A DNA stretch of 64,000 nucleotides from Selenomonadaceae bacterium (lineage in GTDB: Bacteria; Bacillota; Negativicutes; Selenomonadales; Selenomonadaceae), in contig JAUNIB010000005.1 of the NCBI GenBank assembly GCA_030523645.1, positions 1 through 64,000 on the forward strand, given 5' to 3'. Shown here in pieces: positions 4,815-13,413 of this stretch; the stretch's first letter is position 1, and every line of letters begins with the position of its first letter. Both the position numbers and the translations under genes were made by a program. The notes beneath the pieces were generated by a model. It worked only from the letters and a program-made list of their open reading frames with translations, was not told the DNA's origin and did no database searches.

Positions 4815-4963
4815 CAAATAATATAGAAACTCAAACCATCCTCTCACACCGTTCGGGATATAAGTCCCATTGTATTTATACCATAATAACAGTACCATTT
4901 AGACAAATATTATTATACATCTCTATCATATATTTTGTTTTATAAAACTAGAGTGAGGTATTG

Positions 4964-5536
4964 ATGATGAACAAATTCGGAAAACTATTCGTTGTTGGCG
5001 GTTTAGTTGCTGCCATGGCTCTCTCCGCCGGCTGCGGAGATGACAAGAAGGTCGCTGACACCAAGAAGCCGGCTGCTTCCTCCAGCTCTCAGAAGCCTGC
5101 CGAGAAGAAACCCGTCTCCAATGCTCCTGCCGTAAAGGCTCCGGCTAATGCCAACTGGCGTTACCCCAGCTACATCAAGACCGAGGCTGATACTCCGAAG
5201 ATGACCCCGGAGATTCAGAAAATTGTTGATGAATGCTTCGCTCAGATGACTCTCCATCCCTCCGAGAAGGGCAAGCTCCTGAACGACTCCAAGATCAGCT
5301 CCGGAGACCAGCGCAATGTTCGCGACCTCTGGTTCCACGCAAAGGGCGAGAATCACGACCCCAAGAACAAGTTCAAGAACTCCAAGGGCAAGGAAGTATA
5401 TGCTCAGGAGGCCTACCACATCAGAATTACCGTTGACAAGGACACCAGCGCTGTCAAGAGATGGAGATTTGAAAAGTATGTAATGTCTCCGGAAATGCCG
5501 GACGGAAAGACCATCGTCATCAAGGAAGTTAAGTAA
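4964..5536 (+). CDS. Predicted lipoprotein of unknown function
   Basis: About 190 residues. A lysine-bearing N-terminus and hydrophobic stretch end in the lipobox LSAGC (Cys at about residue 24), so it should be lipidated and anchored in the envelope. A low-complexity linker rich in Lys, Pro, Ala and Ser (about 30-70) precedes a compact domain with WFHAKGENHDP and a C-terminal strand region. Three consecutive ATG codons are possible starts (4961, 4964, 4967); GAGGT about 8 bases upstream fits 4964. No known domain was recognised. Unlike the next gene, it ends in its own terminator. Confidence 0.85.
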   Translation: MMNKFGKLFVVGGLVAAMALSAGCGDDKKVADTKKPAASSSSQKPAEKKPVSNAPAVKAPANANWRYPSYIKTEADTPKMTPEIQKIVDECFAQMTLHPSEKGKLLNDSKISSGDQRNVRDLWFHAKGENHDPKNKFKNSKGKEVYAQEAYHIRITVDKDTSAVKRWRFEKYVMSPEMPDGKTIVIKEVK

Positions 5537-5615: not shown

Positions 5616-6509
5616 ATGTTTGGCTTAATCGGTAAGGCAATTTGTGCCGTCCTGTCCGTTCTTTGTTTTGGTTATTCCGGTGTTTGCCTGTTTACCAATA
5701 CAAGCAAACAGGCAGAGTCCATCGTTGAAGCTGTGGATTACAATGTCCACCCGGAAAATGAGGGTAAGCTGGTCATGATGCGCGGCAAGCTCACCTATAA
5801 AGGGACCATCACAGAAGACCCGGAGCTGGGCGTAAAAATTAAATCCCCTATTCTTCAGCGTCATACAGAAATGTTTCAGTACATCCCCAGCAGTAACGAC
5901 GAGAAGGTCAGAACTGCCAAAAAAGGATGGGATAAAAACAGCCATCCCTCCTTTGATGACAAATACAAGCACCGATATAACAATCCTCCCTTCCCCGAAG
6001 GCATTCCCAGGACGAAGGATTTTGCCTGCGACCTGACCATGGGAGACGGTAATCTCAAGATTGACAGCGACTTTGTCAAAGCCCTGAGCTACCGCCAATA
6101 CGTTGACTTCAAGGATTACTATGATCACAAGATGGTAGGCGTCAAAAAGCTGCCGTCCGGTAAGCTCCCGGAGCACTTCAGAAATCTTGACAACAGCTAC
6201 TACCGCAGTCACCGCTCCGAGGATAATTCCATTCTTGAGCAGCCCAGTCTGGGCAAGCGGGACAGCCGGATCGGTGATATCCGCATCTATTACAAGGCCT
6301 TTAAGTGGTCTGATGACCTGCCGGAATTTACCGTCATCGGTCTGCAAAAGGACGGCAAGCTGCTGCGGCAGGAAGGCGCTCTCTTCTTTGATTACCGGAT
6401 AAATGACCTGCAGGAGCTGAAGCGCGAGATGCGAAGCTCCAACCGTTCTGCCATGTTCGGCTCCTTCGTCTGCGGTCTGGTACTGGCCGCTTTTGCACTA
6501 TTTATTTAA
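5616..6509 (+). CDS. TMEM43 (LUMA)-like membrane protein, paralog A
   Basis: About 297 residues from the ATG at 5616, which has GGAAGG 8 bases upstream; an in-frame TTG at 5586 is a less likely start. A transmembrane segment lies at about residues 4-26 and a second at the C-terminus (FGSFVCGLVLAAFALFI). Between them is a large extracytoplasmic region with the TMEM43 pattern: GKLVMMRGKLT, a LQRHTEMFQY block, a W-K segment, PSGLK/PFPEG-type prolines, and GDIRIYYKAFKW near the end. The gene at 11268-12095 is a clear paralog. The family's role in bacteria is not established. It starts a run of plus-strand genes with three exported proteins. Confidence 0.82.
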   Translation: MFGLIGKAICAVLSVLCFGYSGVCLFTNTSKQAESIVEAVDYNVHPENEGKLVMMRGKLTYKGTITEDPELGVKIKSPILQRHTEMFQYIPSSNDEKVRTAKKGWDKNSHPSFDDKYKHRYNNPPFPEGIPRTKDFACDLTMGDGNLKIDSDFVKALSYRQYVDFKDYYDHKMVGVKKLPSGKLPEHFRNLDNSYYRSHRSEDNSILEQPSLGKRDSRIGDIRIYYKAFKWSDDLPEFTVIGLQKDGKLLRQEGALFFDYRINDLQELKREMRSSNRSAMFGSFVCGLVLAAFALFI

Positions 6510-6533
6510 CAGTTCAGCTTTAGAGGGATTGAT

Positions 6534-7283
6534 ATGAAATTTTATAAGCTTACCAAGGGGCTGCTCCTCGGCGCGCTTTTCTCCGCCGGTTGTTTCTGCA
6601 TGGCGGCCACTGGTTTTGCCGAAGCAAAGGCCTTTGAGTACGATTCTGTCCTGCGGGGCAGCTATGCTCACATTTTCCGGGATGAATTCTTTACCAGAAG
6701 CGCCAATGTGTACAATTCCGCTAATCAGATTAACAGCTGGGGCGAGGTAATCTCCCGTGAAGAAAGCGGCATGGACGGCAGTGTAAAGAAATGCTGGATG
6801 ATAGGTGATCTCACGCGTGACAGCAGCAACAAATTTACTCTCAATGTCAGGCGTCATGTTATTCAGAAGCTGGACAACCGTGGTAAAATACTGATGAGCA
6901 AGGTTGAAGATGTAGACTACGAAATAAATGTCTATCACCGCATGGAATCCGGTCTGCGTCTTGAGTGGCCCCGCACCGGTGACGGCCCCTGCTCGGATAT
7001 AGACGGAGAATACACTGTCTCCAGAGAGTACCCCATGATGAGCCGTGAAGCCGCCATGTATGTTTTGGGCAAAACTCTGAACAGTCTTCCCGAGTATCGC
7101 GACAAGCTGCCGGGGGCAGCTATGACTGTTGATGGGAATGATATGGCAGAGACCTATATCATCAGAGTACTCGAGCATCATCCCGACCATGTTGTCACGA
7201 GAGGTACCTATCAGGTCAGTGCCAGCGGCAATGTGCTGGAGTATGATGTTGTCCGGGACAAGTGGCAGGAGCTTGTGCATTGA
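6534..7283 (+). CDS. Exported protein of unknown function
   Basis: 249 residues. The N-terminus (MKFYKLTKGLLLGALFSAGC, then ...MAATGFAEA) is a signal peptide with probable cleavage after the AEA around residue 31; the internal Cys in FSAGC could alternatively be a lipobox. The mature part is a mixed alpha/beta domain with repeated polar strands and no motif I recognise. It starts 24 bases after the TMEM43-like gene and is likely in the same transcript. An extracytoplasmic location is well supported; function is unknown. Confidence 0.78.
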   Translation: MKFYKLTKGLLLGALFSAGCFCMAATGFAEAKAFEYDSVLRGSYAHIFRDEFFTRSANVYNSANQINSWGEVISREESGMDGSVKKCWMIGDLTRDSSNKFTLNVRRHVIQKLDNRGKILMSKVEDVDYEINVYHRMESGLRLEWPRTGDGPCSDIDGEYTVSREYPMMSREAAMYVLGKTLNSLPEYRDKLPGAAMTVDGNDMAETYIIRVLEHHPDHVVTRGTYQVSASGNVLEYDVVRDKWQELVH

Positions 7284-7314
7284 TTGAACACCGTTAACGA
7301 AAAGGAGGACGAGG

Positions 7315-8160
7315 ATGAACAAGAAAATTATACTGGGAGTTCTGCTGTGTGCCGCCGGACTTTCCGCATTATTTGACTCCGGTATCGGCTCAGCCTTCAG
7401 CCTGTTCGGTAAATCAGTCATTGATTCCCCGCTGAAGGGCGTGTCCTTTACCCGCGGCGGCGATATGCAGGGCAGCTTCCATGCTATGTCCGTCCGCATC
7501 ATAGACGAGCAGACCGCCATGGTCTGCTATGAGGATGCCAGCTGGCACCATGAAGCGATCGCCGTGAAGGAATACCTCGTACCGATCTCTGTCCTCGATG
7601 ACATAAAGACTATCTTCAACAGTAATAAGCTTGTTCGCTGCGAAAAAGCCTCCGCCTCCAAATTCATAGTGCTGGACGGTGCTACCAGCAGCTACTCCTT
7701 CTCCTTTGAGAACCGACATGTTCACTTCAGCTCTACTCAGGACATATCCCGTGACAGCTATCAGGCACTGCGGGACATCAGCGACTGCGTGGCTGCGGCC
7801 TGCAAAAACGGCCAGCTGCTGCCGGGGCTCCTGCTGGAAAAGGACGAGCAGGGCAATATGCCCACGAGAAACGCTGTGGTGAAAGATGCTGTCGGAATCA
7901 AAGTCGTCGGCTACAAAAACAAGACCCTGCAAATATCAATCGGAAACGGTTTTGATGAAGAGAAAACCGTATCTCTCCGCGCACTGATTACCCCATCGGA
8001 TGACCCGGAAAAGATACTTTTTCTTAAGGATACGAAAGATACCGTCAAGCTCCCGCCCCGATACAGCGACGACTATAGATGGACTCTCGAAAAAAGGCTG
8101 GAGCCGGGAAAGTATTGTCTGACCCTGGGCGGCTGCACTGCCGAATTTGAAATCAGATGA
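7315..8160 (+). CDS. Exported or membrane-anchored protein of unknown function
   Basis: 281 residues. An N-terminal hydrophobic segment (KIILGVLLCAAGLSALF) acts as a signal or anchor. The remaining ~250 residues look like two beta-rich domains: one around 40-160, and a C-terminal Ig-like strand set ending in GKYCLTLGGCTAEFEI. A strong AAGGAGG site lies 6 bases before the ATG. It lies 31 bases after the previous gene and 17 before the next, so it is probably co-transcribed. I do not recognise the family. Confidence 0.76.
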   Translation: MNKKIILGVLLCAAGLSALFDSGIGSAFSLFGKSVIDSPLKGVSFTRGGDMQGSFHAMSVRIIDEQTAMVCYEDASWHHEAIAVKEYLVPISVLDDIKTIFNSNKLVRCEKASASKFIVLDGATSSYSFSFENRHVHFSSTQDISRDSYQALRDISDCVAAACKNGQLLPGLLLEKDEQGNMPTRNAVVKDAVGIKVVGYKNKTLQISIGNGFDEEKTVSLRALITPSDDPEKILFLKDTKDTVKLPPRYSDDYRWTLEKRLEPGKYCLTLGGCTAEFEIR

Positions 8161-8177
8161 AGCGGAGGTAATATTAT

Positions 8178-8831
8178 ATGAAAAAGAAACTCATCGCCGG
8201 CCTTGTCCTTGGTCTCACCGTCATGGCCAGCACCTGCTTCGCCCATGTTTTCGACCGGGTAGAGCAGTATAAGGGCAACGAGCTGAAAATTCCCCAAGTG
8301 GCAGGAATCGAGGAAAAAGCTGCCAAGCAGATAAACAACTACATTGTAAAAAATGTAGCCTCCGACGCCAAAAAATTCATTGATAAGCACGGCGCAGAGG
8401 GCGGCACGGCATGGCTCTACACCACGGTTGTGAGAGATGACGAGAAATACCTTTCCCTGCGGATTGCCAGTGCCAGCTATTTCAAAGGGGCGGTCCATCC
8501 CAATGCCTACGTCTTCGGTCTGGTGTTTGACAAGGCCACAGGCAAAAGGCTGCCCCTAAGTTACTTTGTCAATATCCCCTCTGCGGCTTTCCTGGAAGAA
8601 AATGTCCGCAATAATGTTTTCAAGTTCTACGCTTCCGGAGACACTCTGCTGGAGCTGGAAGCCAGCTCCCATATCACCCATATAAGCGAGCAGTACACCC
8701 TTGATGCCAACGACAATCTCGATCTGTACTATCAGCAGTACGAGCTGGGGCCCTACGCTATCGGCTCACCATATATCCGGCTTGACAAGCTGTATGTAGA
8801 CCGCAACGGCACCGTCCTGCCGAAAGGCTGA
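8178..8831 (+). CDS. Exported DUF3298/RsiV-like protein
   Basis: 217 residues. A signal peptide (MKKKLIAGLVLGLTVMASTCFA) should be cleaved after CFA at residue 22. The body has the DUF3298-type pattern: KQINNYIV, then SLRIASASYFKGAVHPN followed by a VFDKATGKRLPLSYF segment. This fold is found in the extracytoplasmic part of RsiV-type anti-sigma factors, which bind lysozyme, and in free-standing exported proteins. No anti-sigma domain or sigma factor gene is adjacent, so an independent wall-related role is more likely. Last gene of the plus-strand run, followed by a strong terminator. Confidence 0.8.
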   Translation: MKKKLIAGLVLGLTVMASTCFAHVFDRVEQYKGNELKIPQVAGIEEKAAKQINNYIVKNVASDAKKFIDKHGAEGGTAWLYTTVVRDDEKYLSLRIASASYFKGAVHPNAYVFGLVFDKATGKRLPLSYFVNIPSAAFLEENVRNNVFKFYASGDTLLELEASSHITHISEQYTLDANDNLDLYYQQYELGPYAIGSPYIRLDKLYVDRNGTVLPKG

Positions 8832-8877
8832 GCCAGCTCTCTTACCAATTGTAAATTAACCCGCCGCTCTTAGCTGC

Positions 8878-8927
8878 AAAAAGGGACTGTGAAAAAATGA
8901 GCACTCATTTTTTCACAGTCCCTTTTT
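8878..8927. terminator. Long bidirectional terminator hairpin
   Basis: A 24-base-pair perfect stem with a 2-base loop, A-run on one side and T-run on the other, lying between convergent genes (DUF3298 gene and L,D-transpeptidase). Its core GGGACTGTGAAAAAATGAG is almost repeated in the hairpin at 60604-60651. Confidence 0.93.
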
Positions 8928-9546
8928 AGTCTTCTAAAATAATAACTCTGACACCGATACCTTTGTTTTTAGAAGCAATCAGCTTCTTCAGCTCGGCAAC
9001 ATCCTTGTTATGCAGTCTGATGCAGCCCTCGGATGCATTAGTACCGATACTGCCGGGATCATGGGTACCGTGTATTCCGATTCCGTCCCATCCGGTGTTC
9101 AGAGAAATGAACCAGGGGCCGTAGGCACCCTTTATCTCACTCTTCCCGTCACCGAAATCGTGTGTCCAATTCCGGGCATTGTCAATCTCCTCCACAACAA
9201 AGGGAATCTTAGAAGATTCTGTTTTCGGTGCTGCTCCCGGAATGGACGGAAGAACGCCTCCCCAGCTGGTAGGGGTTGTGTTATCCCCTGCCCTCTGTTT
9301 GTCACCCGTATTTTTTCCCACGGCACACTTATATGTGCGAATAGGGTTAGCTTCTCCCCTTTTGAAAAGCTCCAAGGTATATGACAGCTTGTGGACACAG
9401 ATAAAATAATCCTGCTCGCCAAAAACCTTTGTATATGCTGAATCCGCCGCCGAGGTTTTTATTTCAAAGGCAAACGCCGCTGCCGCTATTATCAGCATCA
9501 GCATAAAGAGTCTTGGATAAGATGATTTACTTCTGTCGTTAAGCAT
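8926..9546 (-). CDS. L,D-transpeptidase (YkuD family), exported
   Basis: 206 residues. An N-terminal membrane segment (LFMLMLIIAAAAFAFEI, about 14-30) acts as signal or anchor. The catalytic region is intact: IGIHGTHDPGSIGTNASEG followed by CIRL, with His about 159 and nucleophile Cys about 175. Such enzymes form 3-3 peptidoglycan cross-links or attach proteins to the wall. It follows the zinc-ribbon membrane protein by 62 bases on the same strand and may belong to the mutM-coaE-SLT transcript. Its stop codon overlaps the terminator. Confidence 0.92.
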   Translation of the reverse strand: MLNDRSKSSYPRLFMLMLIIAAAAFAFEIKTSAADSAYTKVFGEQDYFICVHKLSYTLELFKRGEANPIRTYKCAVGKNTGDKQRAGDNTTPTSWGGVLPSIPGAAPKTESSKIPFVVEEIDNARNWTHDFGDGKSEIKGAYGPWFISLNTGWDGIGIHGTHDPGSIGTNASEGCIRLHNKDVAELKKLIASKNKGIGVRVIILED

Positions 9547-9608
9547 ATATTCACCTCTGCTATCCTGTGCGGGAACTAAATCGTATACGCCTTATACCAG
9601 CCTGTCTA

Positions 9609-11255
9609 TCAGTCCAGTATCGCCCCTACGCAGCCTAAAAGCATAAATAGGATAAACAAGGCAATCCAGCACACCGGCGGCGTGGCAAGTATTCCAAATA
9701 TGCCGCGGATGCTTATATCCGCATCATTTGTTCCCTCTACCTTCACAGCAGAGCCGTCCGGCAGAATGCGATACAGCACCGGGAAGGAGAAGACATCTCT
9801 GCGGACTACTGCCAGCCACAGGACAAAGAGACAGGGAATCGTCAGGGACCACCATGCCGCCGCATAGAAGTGATGTACCTGATTGAACCGCTCCGCCGGG
9901 TCACCGTTCACATACACATCGTAGGCTACTGCGCCCATGGCGATGATGTTCGGCAGGAAGGCCGTAATCAGGGCAAATATCCCCGCCTTTACGGCTCGCA
10001 TTACGGTGTAGAACTTAATCTTCACCGGCACCATATCCCCGTCCACAAGCTCGAAGAATATCGGCACCTTCGCCGGATTATCCACCAGCTCTTTGCCATC
10101 GGTGAAGCTCAGTGTTCGCTTGACACGGACCGCCATCTGTTTTTTGCTTTGCAGGTACACGGCCTTTTTTACGGTCCTTGTCCCATGATATGCCGCCCAG
10201 ACAATGATGCCTACGACACCGCTCAAAGCGCAGGTTAATTCAAAAACGGGATGGAAATGAAGCAGCAGGGGGACCGCCTCGCAGAGTCCGGCGATAAAAA
10301 GCACCGTCAGCAGGGGCTCCAGCCAGGCTCTTTGCACAGTTTCCTTCTTCAGCGGTGTTACGGAAACCCTGCCGGTCTGTCCATTGACAGCGCACTGCAC
10401 CTGACCTCTGGTGATAACATATACCGGCATCAAGGCCGGAATCTGCAGTACATTTCCTACTTCGATGGAAGTATCCAGATCCGCGCTTTGCAATGTTTTT
10501 TCTATGGTCGGCAAGTATGTGGCCTTTACCTCCTCACCAATCCGGTAGGAAATCCCCGCCTCCTCAGTGTCCTGCAGCTTTGTCCGCATACCGGCAATAT
10601 AGCCGTACTCAAAGGGGCGTATTTCCCGCCAGTCAAATGGCTCCATAGCATCCAGCAGCAAATTGTCAAGCTGACTGGAGGTATTGACCGCCACCTCGTC
10701 GATAAAGCCGCCGTAGGTATACTGCCGGTCGCTGCGGGCGCGGAAGGCCGTTCCCCGTACCGGGCCCTTGACAATCTGATAGGGCAGATAATATCCCTGC
10801 AGTTCATTTATCCGGCCCTGCAGCTTCTTAGCTTCCTCTTTTGAGGAGTTCTTCGAGAGCCACTTCTCCAGCTCCGCCTTTGCCTCCTCCAATGTCAGCT
10901 TGAAGGGGATAATCAGCTCCGGGAATGCATCGCTGTCCACGAAGTCGCTGTTGACCATCTTCGTACCGCAGAAGCCGCAGTCTGCCGTTGCCTCGGTGGT
11001 ATCCTGCACCACCACTGCACCGCAGTTGGGACAGTTGTACTTGCGGCACTTGTCCTGAGACTGCTTTGCCTTCAGCTCCTTCTCATGGAGCTGGCGGTAC
11101 CTCCGCACCGCCAGCAGCGGTGCCTTCAGCTCTGTTACGCTGCCGCAGTACTGGCAGTGGTAGTTCTGATGAATAATATCGTATTCCGCCGGAGCACCGC
11201 AGCCGTCACAGGTTATATTGAAAGGATTTGTAAAGGTTTCCTGATTCTCTCCCAT
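9609..11255 (-). CDS. TFIIB-type zinc-ribbon multi-span membrane protein
   Basis: 548 residues with an AGGAGG site before the ATG. Two zinc ribbons sit at the N-terminus: CDGC...CQYC (about residues 15-37) and CPNC...CGFC (about 74-96). A central cytoplasmic domain rich in charged residues follows. At least four hydrophobic helices occur in the last ~240 residues, including the extreme C-terminus. Proteins with this layout are annotated as zinc-ribbon membrane proteins without known function. The gene lies 12 bases after TMEM43-like paralog B, suggesting a joint role in the envelope. A role in replication, suggested by similar ribbons in other proteins, is not supported. Confidence 0.78.
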   Translation of the reverse strand: MGENQETFTNPFNITCDGCGAPAEYDIIHQNYHCQYCGSVTELKAPLLAVRRYRQLHEKELKAKQSQDKCRKYNCPNCGAVVVQDTTEATADCGFCGTKMVNSDFVDSDAFPELIIPFKLTLEEAKAELEKWLSKNSSKEEAKKLQGRINELQGYYLPYQIVKGPVRGTAFRARSDRQYTYGGFIDEVAVNTSSQLDNLLLDAMEPFDWREIRPFEYGYIAGMRTKLQDTEEAGISYRIGEEVKATYLPTIEKTLQSADLDTSIEVGNVLQIPALMPVYVITRGQVQCAVNGQTGRVSVTPLKKETVQRAWLEPLLTVLFIAGLCEAVPLLLHFHPVFELTCALSGVVGIIVWAAYHGTRTVKKAVYLQSKKQMAVRVKRTLSFTDGKELVDNPAKVPIFFELVDGDMVPVKIKFYTVMRAVKAGIFALITAFLPNIIAMGAVAYDVYVNGDPAERFNQVHHFYAAAWWSLTIPCLFVLWLAVVRRDVFSFPVLYRILPDGSAVKVEGTNDADISIRGIFGILATPPVCWIALFILFMLLGCVGAILD

Positions 11256-11267
11256 AGCTGCGCCTCC

Positions 11268-12095
11268 TTACCTTTCGCCCTTGAATACGCCCAATACAAT
11301 GAAGAAGGTTCCAAAAAATACTGCTGCCAGTGCTGCATGAGGGGAATCCTGAGTATAGGTTTTTACTATCTCATCCATCGTCACATCACGGTCATAAAAG
11401 CGGCAGTCATCATTGGAGTATATTACCTTGCCGTTTTTCTGCTGGCCGAGGATTGTCAGCTCCGGCAGGTCGTCATATTTCAGCACCTTGTAGTATATCC
11501 GCACATCACCGATACGGTTCTTTTTACCTGCAGACTTGAGATAATAGCTGTCCTTCCATTCAAAGTCCTTCACTCTGCATTCCTTGGGCAAGTTTTTCAG
11601 ATAGTAAAAGCTGTCCTTGTACTTTTCCTTGTCCAGTTTCTGCTGCAGGAACCTGTGGGAGATGGGAAGATTTCCCTCCCCCAGCAGGAAGTCATGATAA
11701 AAGGTTTTGCTTTTCAGCCCGGAGGGGAAGTCGGGATTTTTCCATTCCCTGCCTTTGCTGTCCTTGAAGCTCTTTATCTGATGGTCCTTCCAGCCCATCA
11801 TGGTCTTTTCCCCGTCAGGAAAGTACTGGTACATCTCTACTACCCGCTTCATGATGGGATACCTGCTTTTTACGCCGGTAGAGTCGTCCTCCACAGGCTC
11901 CTTCACCTTCAGCTTTCCCTTGACCATTACCAGCTTGACAGTGCCGCTGCCGTCGTCAGTATTTTCCACATGGTAGTTATTATCCGACACCACGGCGATT
12001 TCCGGCGGATTCAGAAAATTGTTATACAGATAATAGCCGACCCCGAAGCAGGCAATACCAACAGCAATCAAAATCCCTCTCAGCAGCTTTTGCAA
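11268..12095 (-). CDS. TMEM43 (LUMA)-like membrane protein, paralog B
   Basis: 275 residues with transmembrane segments at about 5-25 and at the C-terminus (AALAAVFFGTFFIVLGVF). The extracytoplasmic region matches paralog A at 5616-6509: VKLVMVKGKLK, KRVVEMYQYF, a GWKDHQI segment, PDFPSGLKSKTF, GEGNLPIS, then GDVRIYYKVLKYDDLPELTILG. It lies between the lytic transglycosylase and the zinc-ribbon gene with short gaps (32 and 12 bases), so the three are likely co-transcribed. Both copies are complete. Confidence 0.82.
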   Translation of the reverse strand: MQKLLRGILIAVGIACFGVGYYLYNNFLNPPEIAVVSDNNYHVENTDDGSGTVKLVMVKGKLKVKEPVEDDSTGVKSRYPIMKRVVEMYQYFPDGEKTMMGWKDHQIKSFKDSKGREWKNPDFPSGLKSKTFYHDFLLGEGNLPISHRFLQQKLDKEKYKDSFYYLKNLPKECRVKDFEWKDSYYLKSAGKKNRIGDVRIYYKVLKYDDLPELTILGQQKNGKVIYSNDDCRFYDRDVTMDEIVKTYTQDSPHAALAAVFFGTFFIVLGVFKGER

Positions 12096-12127: not shown

Positions 12128-12814
12128 TTACTTCTGCTCTTTTTTCTGTGGGTGGTAGAGCTTCCTGTATCGGTCTCTGTCTGCCAGCACCCTTTTCACA
12201 TAGTGCTTTGTTTCCTCATAGGGTATCTTATCTGCCTCGGCGAAACGGTCGTCCCAGCCGTTGCTTTCCATCCAGTCATGTACTACAGTTGTCCCGGCAT
12301 TGTAGGCGGCCAGCGCCAGGGTTTCATTTCCCTCAAAAAGCTCCAGCAGGTAAGCAATATACCATGTGCCGTAGCGAATGTTCAAATCCGGCTCCGACAG
12401 CCTCTCTTCACTGTAGTTCTTGTCTTCCAGCCTTCCTGCTATCCAGGCTGCCGTTTCCGGCATCAGCTGCATGAGCCCCTTCGCTCCGCGGTGAGAGGAT
12501 ACTCCCTGTCGGAACTTGCTTTCGTTGTTGATTATCGCCGCAACCAGATACTCATCCACTCTCCGCCGCTCTGCCTCCCGCTCGATGGTCAGGTAGTAGG
12601 GATATGGGGCAGAGCTGCGATACTGCCGCTCAAAGAAGGGCAGGTAATACATATAGGCGCCGATGCAGACTGCTGCCAGGAAGAAAATCAGGGCATACTT
12701 AAAAGAGCTCCATCGTTTCTGACGGCGCTTTTCCCGGCGGCCGGGTCTCCCGGTACCGGTCTTTTTTGTTCTCTTTTTTCCCTTGTATTTTGCTTCTCCC
12801 TTAGTCAAACGCAT
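12128..12814 (-). CDS. Lytic transglycosylase, SLT domain, membrane-anchored
   Basis: About 228 residues from the ATG at 12814; an in-frame GTG at 12838 is an alternative. A very basic N-terminus precedes one transmembrane segment (KYALIFFLAAVCIGAYMYY). The SLT domain follows, with catalytic Glu in NNESKFRQGVSSHRGAKGLM and MQLMPETAAW, then a NIRYGTWYIAYLL and AYNAG motif typical of Slt70/MltC-type folds. It cleaves the MurNAc-GlcNAc bond to give 1,6-anhydro ends. The start overlaps the end of coaE by about 10 bases, indicating translational coupling. Confidence 0.92.
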   Translation of the reverse strand: MRLTKGEAKYKGKKRTKKTGTGRPGRREKRRQKRWSSFKYALIFFLAAVCIGAYMYYLPFFERQYRSSAPYPYYLTIEREAERRRVDEYLVAAIINNESKFRQGVSSHRGAKGLMQLMPETAAWIAGRLEDKNYSEERLSEPDLNIRYGTWYIAYLLELFEGNETLALAAYNAGTTVVHDWMESNGWDDRFAEADKIPYEETKHYVKRVLADRDRYRKLYHPQKKEQK

Positions 12815-13413
12815 GCAGCCGGGTTCAGCCTTTCCCACGCCGCCAGTACCAGACTGCGTGTTTCCTCTATTGTTCCTGAATTATCTATTACCGTATCTGC
12901 CCGCTTTGCTTTCTCTGCAAGGGACATCTGACTGTTTATCCTGTCCTTGGCCAGCTTCTCCGGCAGTCCGTTTCTCTTTATCAGCCGGTCAAGCTGTACC
13001 TCCGGGGACACCGAAACAACCCATACTCTGTCGCAGATATCGTCCCAGCCCACCTCGTACAGCAGGGGAACATCAATGACAGCTATAGCCGCTCCCTCAT
13101 CGGCCAGCTTCTTCAGGCGGGCTTCCATCTCCCCCTTGATGATGGGGTGAGTAGTGCTGTCCATCCAGCGGCGCTCTTCCTTGTCCCGGAATACTACCTC
13201 GCCGATTCCGGCCCGGTTCAGAGAGCCGTCCTCCAGCAAAGCCACCGCCGCCCCGAAATGCTCCAGAAAAGCATTATACAGAGGCTGCCCCTTCTCGGCC
13301 AAAGCTATGGCTATGGCATCTGCGTCCACAATGGGCGCCCCAAGCTCCCGCAGGTAGCTGGACACGGTAGATTTTCCGCAGGCAATGCCTCCGGTCAGTC
13401 CCAAAATAATCAT
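12805..13413 (-). CDS. coaE: Dephospho-CoA kinase
   Basis: About 202 residues from the ATG at 13413, preceded by AGGGAG and 11 bases after mutM ends; an in-frame start at 13437 would overlap mutM. The P-loop GLTGGIACGKST is at the N-terminus, followed by the family's VDADAI, HPII and DVPLLYE motifs. It catalyses ATP-dependent phosphorylation of dephospho-CoA, the last step of coenzyme A synthesis, in the cytoplasm. The gene is normally essential and single copy, which matters for the nature of this replicon. Confidence 0.96.
   Translation of the reverse strand: MIILGLTGGIACGKSTVSSYLRELGAPIVDADAIAIALAEKGQPLYNAFLEHFGAAVALLEDGSLNRAGIGEVVFRDKEERRWMDSTTHPIIKGEMEARLKKLADEGAAIAVIDVPLLYEVGWDDICDRVWVVSVSPEVQLDRLIKRNGLPEKLAKDRINSQMSLAEKAKRADTVIDNSGTIEETRSLVLAAWERLNPAACV

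Follow-up and report, generated by a model that had tools for sequence, protein, structure and literature searches.

Homologues of TMEM43 (LUMA) have already been noted in bacteria; how TMEM43 works at the molecular level is poorly understood, and one human variant leads to the severe inherited heart disease ARVC5 (PMC9307560). In its canonical form (PF07787), the protein has four transmembrane (TM) segments, one N-terminal and three C-terminal, with a large extracytoplasmic domain following the N-terminal anchor. In YdjG, from the pspA-ydjGHI operon of B. subtilis, two zinc ribbons are combined with an NTF2-like domain related to YpeB and with a TM segment (PMC11237479). In that organism YdjG and YdjH are required for the membrane recruitment of YdjI and PspA, and wall synthesis is mislocalised under stress in YdjG/YdjH mutants (PMC8581546).

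The genes listed below are located in the window, i.e. the whole 64 000 nucleotide stretch of DNA that was analysed.

4961..5536 (+), LP4961, lipoprotein with an LSAGC lipobox
5616..6509 (+), T5616, second short TMEM43-domain paralogue, 297 aa, PF07787 match just below the cut-off
6534..7283 (+), X6534, exported protein without a Pfam family
7315..8160 (+), Y7315, exported protein without a Pfam family
8178..8831 (+), Z8178, exported protein with weak, sub-threshold Pfam matches to DUF3298/PdaC
8926..9546 (-), YkuD L,D-transpeptidase, PF03734
9609..11255 (-), ZnR, YdjG-like double zinc ribbon, YdjG core and about five TM segments, 548 aa (hhalign, alignment, hydropathy)
11268..12095 (-), T11271, short TMEM43-domain protein, 275 aa, PF07787, leading the T11271-ZnR pair
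12128..12838 (-), SLT transglycosylase, PF01464, in a polA-mutM-coaE-SLT run

A sequence-only reading of this DNA had described two TMEM43-like paralogues, at 5616 and 11268, and had grouped them with the genes around them as an undescribed envelope-maintenance system. Both ORFs were found to be real, and the lipoprotein, L,D-transpeptidase and SLT transglycosylase were present as claimed. Three exported proteins of unknown fold had also been proposed, a description that suits X6534 and Y7315 and is weakened for Z8178 by its DUF3298/PdaC matches. The word 'undescribed' applies to the connection between TMEM43 and a YdjG-type protein, of which the literature searched (open-licence papers only) gave no report; it does not apply to the components, since ZnR belongs to the YdjG superfamily and bacterial TMEM43 homologues are on record. 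In the same open-licence literature, TMEM43 and a zinc ribbon were named together only in a leukaemia proteomics study, and the word TMEM43 is absent from the PSP survey PMC11237479.

T5616 starts with ATG and T11271 with TTG, the latter with GGAGG upstream. The Pfam TMEM43 profile (PF07787; curated cut-off 23.3 bits) matched T11271 above the cut-off (29.1 bits, E 8e-7) and T5616 slightly below it (22.8 bits, E 7e-5). When a profile of the class's short TMEM43 forms was compared with the canonical TMEM43 profile, a match with an E value of 6e-21 and a probability of 99.3 was obtained (hhalign), so that the proposed profile check came out in favour of the TMEM43 assignment. The two proteins are 33% identical over their full length, and each has a single hydrophobic segment at either end, in agreement with the two membrane anchors and common block predicted for them. 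Alignment revealed a core motif, NEGKLV..G....D...G........R.VEMYQ, common to the short forms and canonical bacterial TMEM43; it is situated N-terminal to the Pfam-matched stretch, and the family-wide motif, which continues after R.VEMYQ with GD.RI.Y, is partly outside that stretch.

Judged by alignment and hydropathy, T11271 and T5616 are of a two-anchor TMEM43-domain type and are not standard TMEM43, because the short forms are without the extra C-terminal hydrophobic segments of their canonical relatives. The likeness to canonical four-TM TMEM43/LUMA consists of the core motif, the large extracytoplasmic domain behind an N-terminal anchor, and the profile match; T11271 and T5616, however, have one C-terminal TM segment instead of three. 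They differ also in that one of them, T11271, shares an operon with a YdjG-like protein, and in that a lipoprotein version is present in the same genome. This third TMEM43-like protein has no TM anchors and is encoded at L050:8574-9353 (G000:C9, ~409.6-410.35 kb), with close copies in genomes G515 and G516. The short TMEM43s make up one supported clade together with the lipoprotein form of these three genomes, and both paralogue types, T11271-like and T5616-like, are common to two families.

ZnR follows T11271 on the same strand at a distance of 12 bp. The presence here of a double-zinc-ribbon membrane protein, as earlier claimed, was confirmed: eight Cys are conserved in the alignment, the first 300 residues match a YdjG-like profile with an E value of 3.5e-31 (hhalign), and the remainder contains about five hydrophobic segments. 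ZnR resembles YdjG in having the YdjG core behind two CxxC-CxxC zinc ribbons and in its membrane anchoring. It differs in being extended at the C terminus, to a total of about five TM segments, whereas YdjG, like the YdjG-like paralogue in the window's own genome, has a single C-terminal one. In contrast to pspA-ydjGHI, neither a YdjH (TPM) nor a YdjI (SPFH) gene adjoins ZnR in the window, and PspA/IM30 (PF04012) was not found in its genome or in 13 others, with E. coli and B. subtilis controls positive. A separate YdjG-TPM-SPFH set does occur in the genome (G000:C9, ~427.6-431.1 kb); as usual, its partners are TPM (YdjH-like) and SPFH (YdjI-like), TMEM43 is missing from it, and its zinc-ribbon protein is paralogous to ZnR (27% over 333 aa). 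Since another gene of the YdjG type is thus present in the genome, next to TPM and SPFH genes, sequence comparison identifies ZnR as an enlarged paralogue or relative of YdjG. A further multi-TM zinc-ribbon paralogue of the genome, at L055:7279-8889 (G000:C9, ~717.3-718.9 kb), is distant from ZnR (22% identity).

The distribution of these genes was surveyed next to that of their neighbours. With PF07787 alone, TMEM43 was detected in one of 100 relatives and in two of 398 phylum genomes, counting one weak extra match; the profile is insensitive here, because T5616 was missed as well. A profile built from the genome's own three TMEM43-like proteins found relatives in seven of 380 class genomes, namely the genome itself and six in family f15. 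Matches in G028:C48 and G253 were dropped as chance-like, and a scan of the genome collection with T11271 alone gave no match. Full-length ZnR is encoded by 16 of 59 genomes of f15 and by about nine genomes listed in the same genus or the same family (f1) as the window. Among 26 ZnR loci, TMEM43 is directly upstream of ZnR in five: the window and G515, G517, G533 and G529, which represent two genera of f15. A profile search revealed no TMEM43 near the other 21, and ZnR therefore does not require TMEM43.

Where the pair does occur, its order is kept. T11271 orthologues are directly upstream of ZnR in G515 and G517, with spacing as tight as that in the window, and the same order with wider spacing is seen in G533 and G529. 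In G515, T11271-like, ZnR and T5616-like genes follow one another on one strand, the T5616 orthologue coming directly after ZnR. Nine short TMEM43 genes were detected in the class, six of them as direct neighbours of ZnR; two of the remaining three are at contig edges (G516, G527), and the third is T5616, approximately 3 kb from ZnR. In G519 (L117), genes for YdjG, TPM and SPFH, together with X-Y-like genes, are found within a few kb of ZnR; this is the only locus at which tight linkage of ZnR to YdjG/TPM/SPFH genes was observed.

TMEM43 relatives were also found in twelve genome-collection records, from Bacilli, Gammaproteobacteria, Saccharibacteria, Verrucomicrobiales, Spirochaetes and others. 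In one Bacilli metagenome-assembled genome (MAG), a short two-anchor TMEM43 abuts a TPM-YdjG pair; the orientation is convergent, and the genes are therefore not an operon. A TMEM43-YdjG neighbourhood common to Bacilli at large was rejected, as 14 other TMEM43 loci of the same order share no neighbourhood. For this reason, only within the window's class can TMEM43 be firmly linked to YdjG-type genes.

A neighbourhood survey had been suggested as a check on the grouping, and in it the TMEM43-ZnR pair, the lipoprotein and X/Y recurred, while the SLT and L,D-transpeptidase genes did not. LP4961 is likely to be associated with the TMEM43-ZnR module; homologues are found a few kb from ZnR at five f15 loci (L074, L111, L112, L115 and L116). 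The same association is likely for X6534 and Y7315. Genes like these two are mutually adjacent in G516 and G519, and in G516 they adjoin the T5616-like gene, which is directly followed by the Y homologue. The association of Z8178 is uncertain: it is retained beside X in a genus mate, and no homologue was seen at other ZnR/TMEM43 loci. The L,D-transpeptidase and the SLT transglycosylase are probably neighbours and not module members. No homologue of the former was observed at any other ZnR/TMEM43 locus examined, and none of the latter at the loci examined in other genera. The single system once proposed is accordingly narrowed to TMEM43-ZnR, the lipoprotein and X/Y, and the TMEM43-ZnR grouping may have an envelope role. 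Beside ZnR in genus g333, genes were also noted whose products have a signal-like segment at the N terminus and a zinc ribbon at the C terminus (L076:12085-13221, L112:5622-6749).

In the genus mate mentioned above (G001; L047, L048; genome 83% complete), T11271 and most of ZnR have been deleted behind SLT. A decayed remnant of ZnR and a short C-terminal remnant of T5616 persist, and X, Z and SLT-coaE-mutM-polA are intact. The module is dispensable, given this decay, and SLT can be assigned to the coaE-mutM-polA run, because that order is kept without TMEM43. ZnR of the window groups with the G515 copy (69% identity, support 95) and not with the ZnRs of its own family (34-39% identity). Between G515 and G517, members of the same genus, ZnR is 58% identical, as against 86% for ThrRS. 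Judged from these comparisons, the history of ZnR is not one of simple vertical descent, and includes transfer or hidden paralogy, plus loss. The G+C and GC3 contents of the module are similar to those of neighbouring genes, so base composition does not support a recent foreign origin. A phage or plasmid carrier was likewise rejected: viral contigs contained no relatives, and nothing in plasmids matched T11271.

Structure searches were of limited reach. The AF2 model of T11271 was moderate (pLDDT 74.9, pTM 0.61), and that of ZnR, predicted from a single sequence, was unusable (pLDDT 39.5). When the T11271 model was compared with PDB folds, nothing matched at E<=1e-3. VIA comparison of the model reached at most a Z of 8.5, for 66 residues, and CDC50A scored 8.4 across 56 residues; fold kinship of the CDC50A type was rejected, the resemblance being one of two-helix topology at most. 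Sequence searches of the PDB found no usable relatives of T11271, T5616 or canonical bacterial TMEM43, and only weak zinc-ribbon matches for ZnR.

By analogy with YdjG, it is tentatively proposed, at a little short of an even chance, that T11271-ZnR is related to the YdjG membrane anchor but works independently of PspA, TMEM43 proteins being its extracytoplasmic partner. The core would be the two-gene operon, joined by the second paralogue, T5616, which in a relative is situated on the opposite flank of ZnR. The zinc ribbons and YdjG core of ZnR would be on the cytoplasmic side, with about five helices anchoring the protein in the membrane; T11271 and T5616 would each cross the membrane twice, with a beta-rich TMEM43 domain outside. 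The TMEM43 proteins would bind ZnR as the extracytoplasmic part, sensing or stabilising the envelope, and ZnR would relay the envelope state to cytoplasmic partners, in parallel with the anchoring of YdjI and PspA by YdjG/YdjH in B. subtilis, here without PspA. We infer the physical complex of T11271/T5616 with ZnR, its topology and its envelope-stress role from the observed homologies, gene order, recurrence and lack of a PspA match.

This anchor reading is preferred because of the TMEM43 and YdjG homologies, the 12 bp spacing, the T-ZnR-T order in G515, the six of nine short TMEM43s that adjoin ZnR and the presence of both paralogue types in two families. Also counted in its favour are the proximity of ZnR to YdjG/TPM/SPFH genes in G519, the Bacilli MAG in which TMEM43 abuts TPM-YdjG, the separate YdjG-TPM-SPFH set and lack of a PspA match in the same genome, and the role of YdjG/YdjH in B. 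subtilis (PMC8581546). Counted against it are the absence of TMEM43 from most ZnR loci, the convergent orientation in Bacilli and the 14 loci there without a common neighbourhood, the single-locus YdjG/TPM/SPFH linkage, the decay in the genus mate and the unusable ZnR model.

Several of these points bear on other explanations. The patchy distribution, the genus-mate decay, the non-vertical history of ZnR and the 21 of 26 ZnR loci without TMEM43 would suit genes hitch-hiking in a variable region that encodes exported and membrane proteins, their adjacency reflecting joint transfer and not joint function. This is considered rather unlikely, however, in the face of a 12 bp spacing and T-ZnR order kept across two families at 42-54% protein identity, the T-ZnR-T order in G515 and the more divergent T-ZnR pairs in genus g333. 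The operon evidence would also fit a complex for membrane-protein quality control or lipid handling, and not a stress sensor, in which ZnR would serve as the scaffold of TMEM43 proteins that bind lipids or misfolded membrane proteins. Two anchors and a large outer domain suit an accessory subunit, and PMC9307560 mentions a change of cardiac lipid metabolism with TMEM43 p.S358L; yet at the loci examined the pair has no recurrent neighbour among lipid, chaperone or protease genes, the weak CDC50A match spans just 56 residues, and such a complex is held to be unlikely. It is very improbable that the genes form a wall-maintenance system with SLT and the L,D-transpeptidase as effectors: the enzymes are physically close in the window, but neither gene is present at any TMEM43/ZnR locus examined in other genera, and in the genus mate, which has lost TMEM43, SLT is still found with coaE-mutM-polA.

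If the YdjG-like anchor reading is true, the YdjG family would extend beyond PspA-dependent stress responses. The recurrence of the TMEM43-YdjG-type pairing in a second family makes it a possible place to learn the function of TMEM43-type proteins, and a bacterial operon of a minimal TMEM43 and a YdjG-type protein offers a concrete partner that is testable in a simple system. A broader proposal is distinctly unlikely: a YdjG-type zinc-ribbon protein would be the base of a membrane-surveillance complex that is independent of PspA, TMEM43-domain proteins would supply its extracytoplasmic subunit, and this bacterial role would mirror a wider function of the domain, in eukaryotic TMEM43 too.

Two further arrangements were observed outside the window's class. 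In Saccharibacteria, a short TMEM43 gene is located between two FemAB-family genes, which encode peptidoglycan cross-bridge enzymes, all on one strand (L089:8861-11757). Two Bacilli TMEM43 genes adjoin, on the same strand, a gene for a zinc-ribbon-domain protein (L151:8011-8838, L156:5220-6146).
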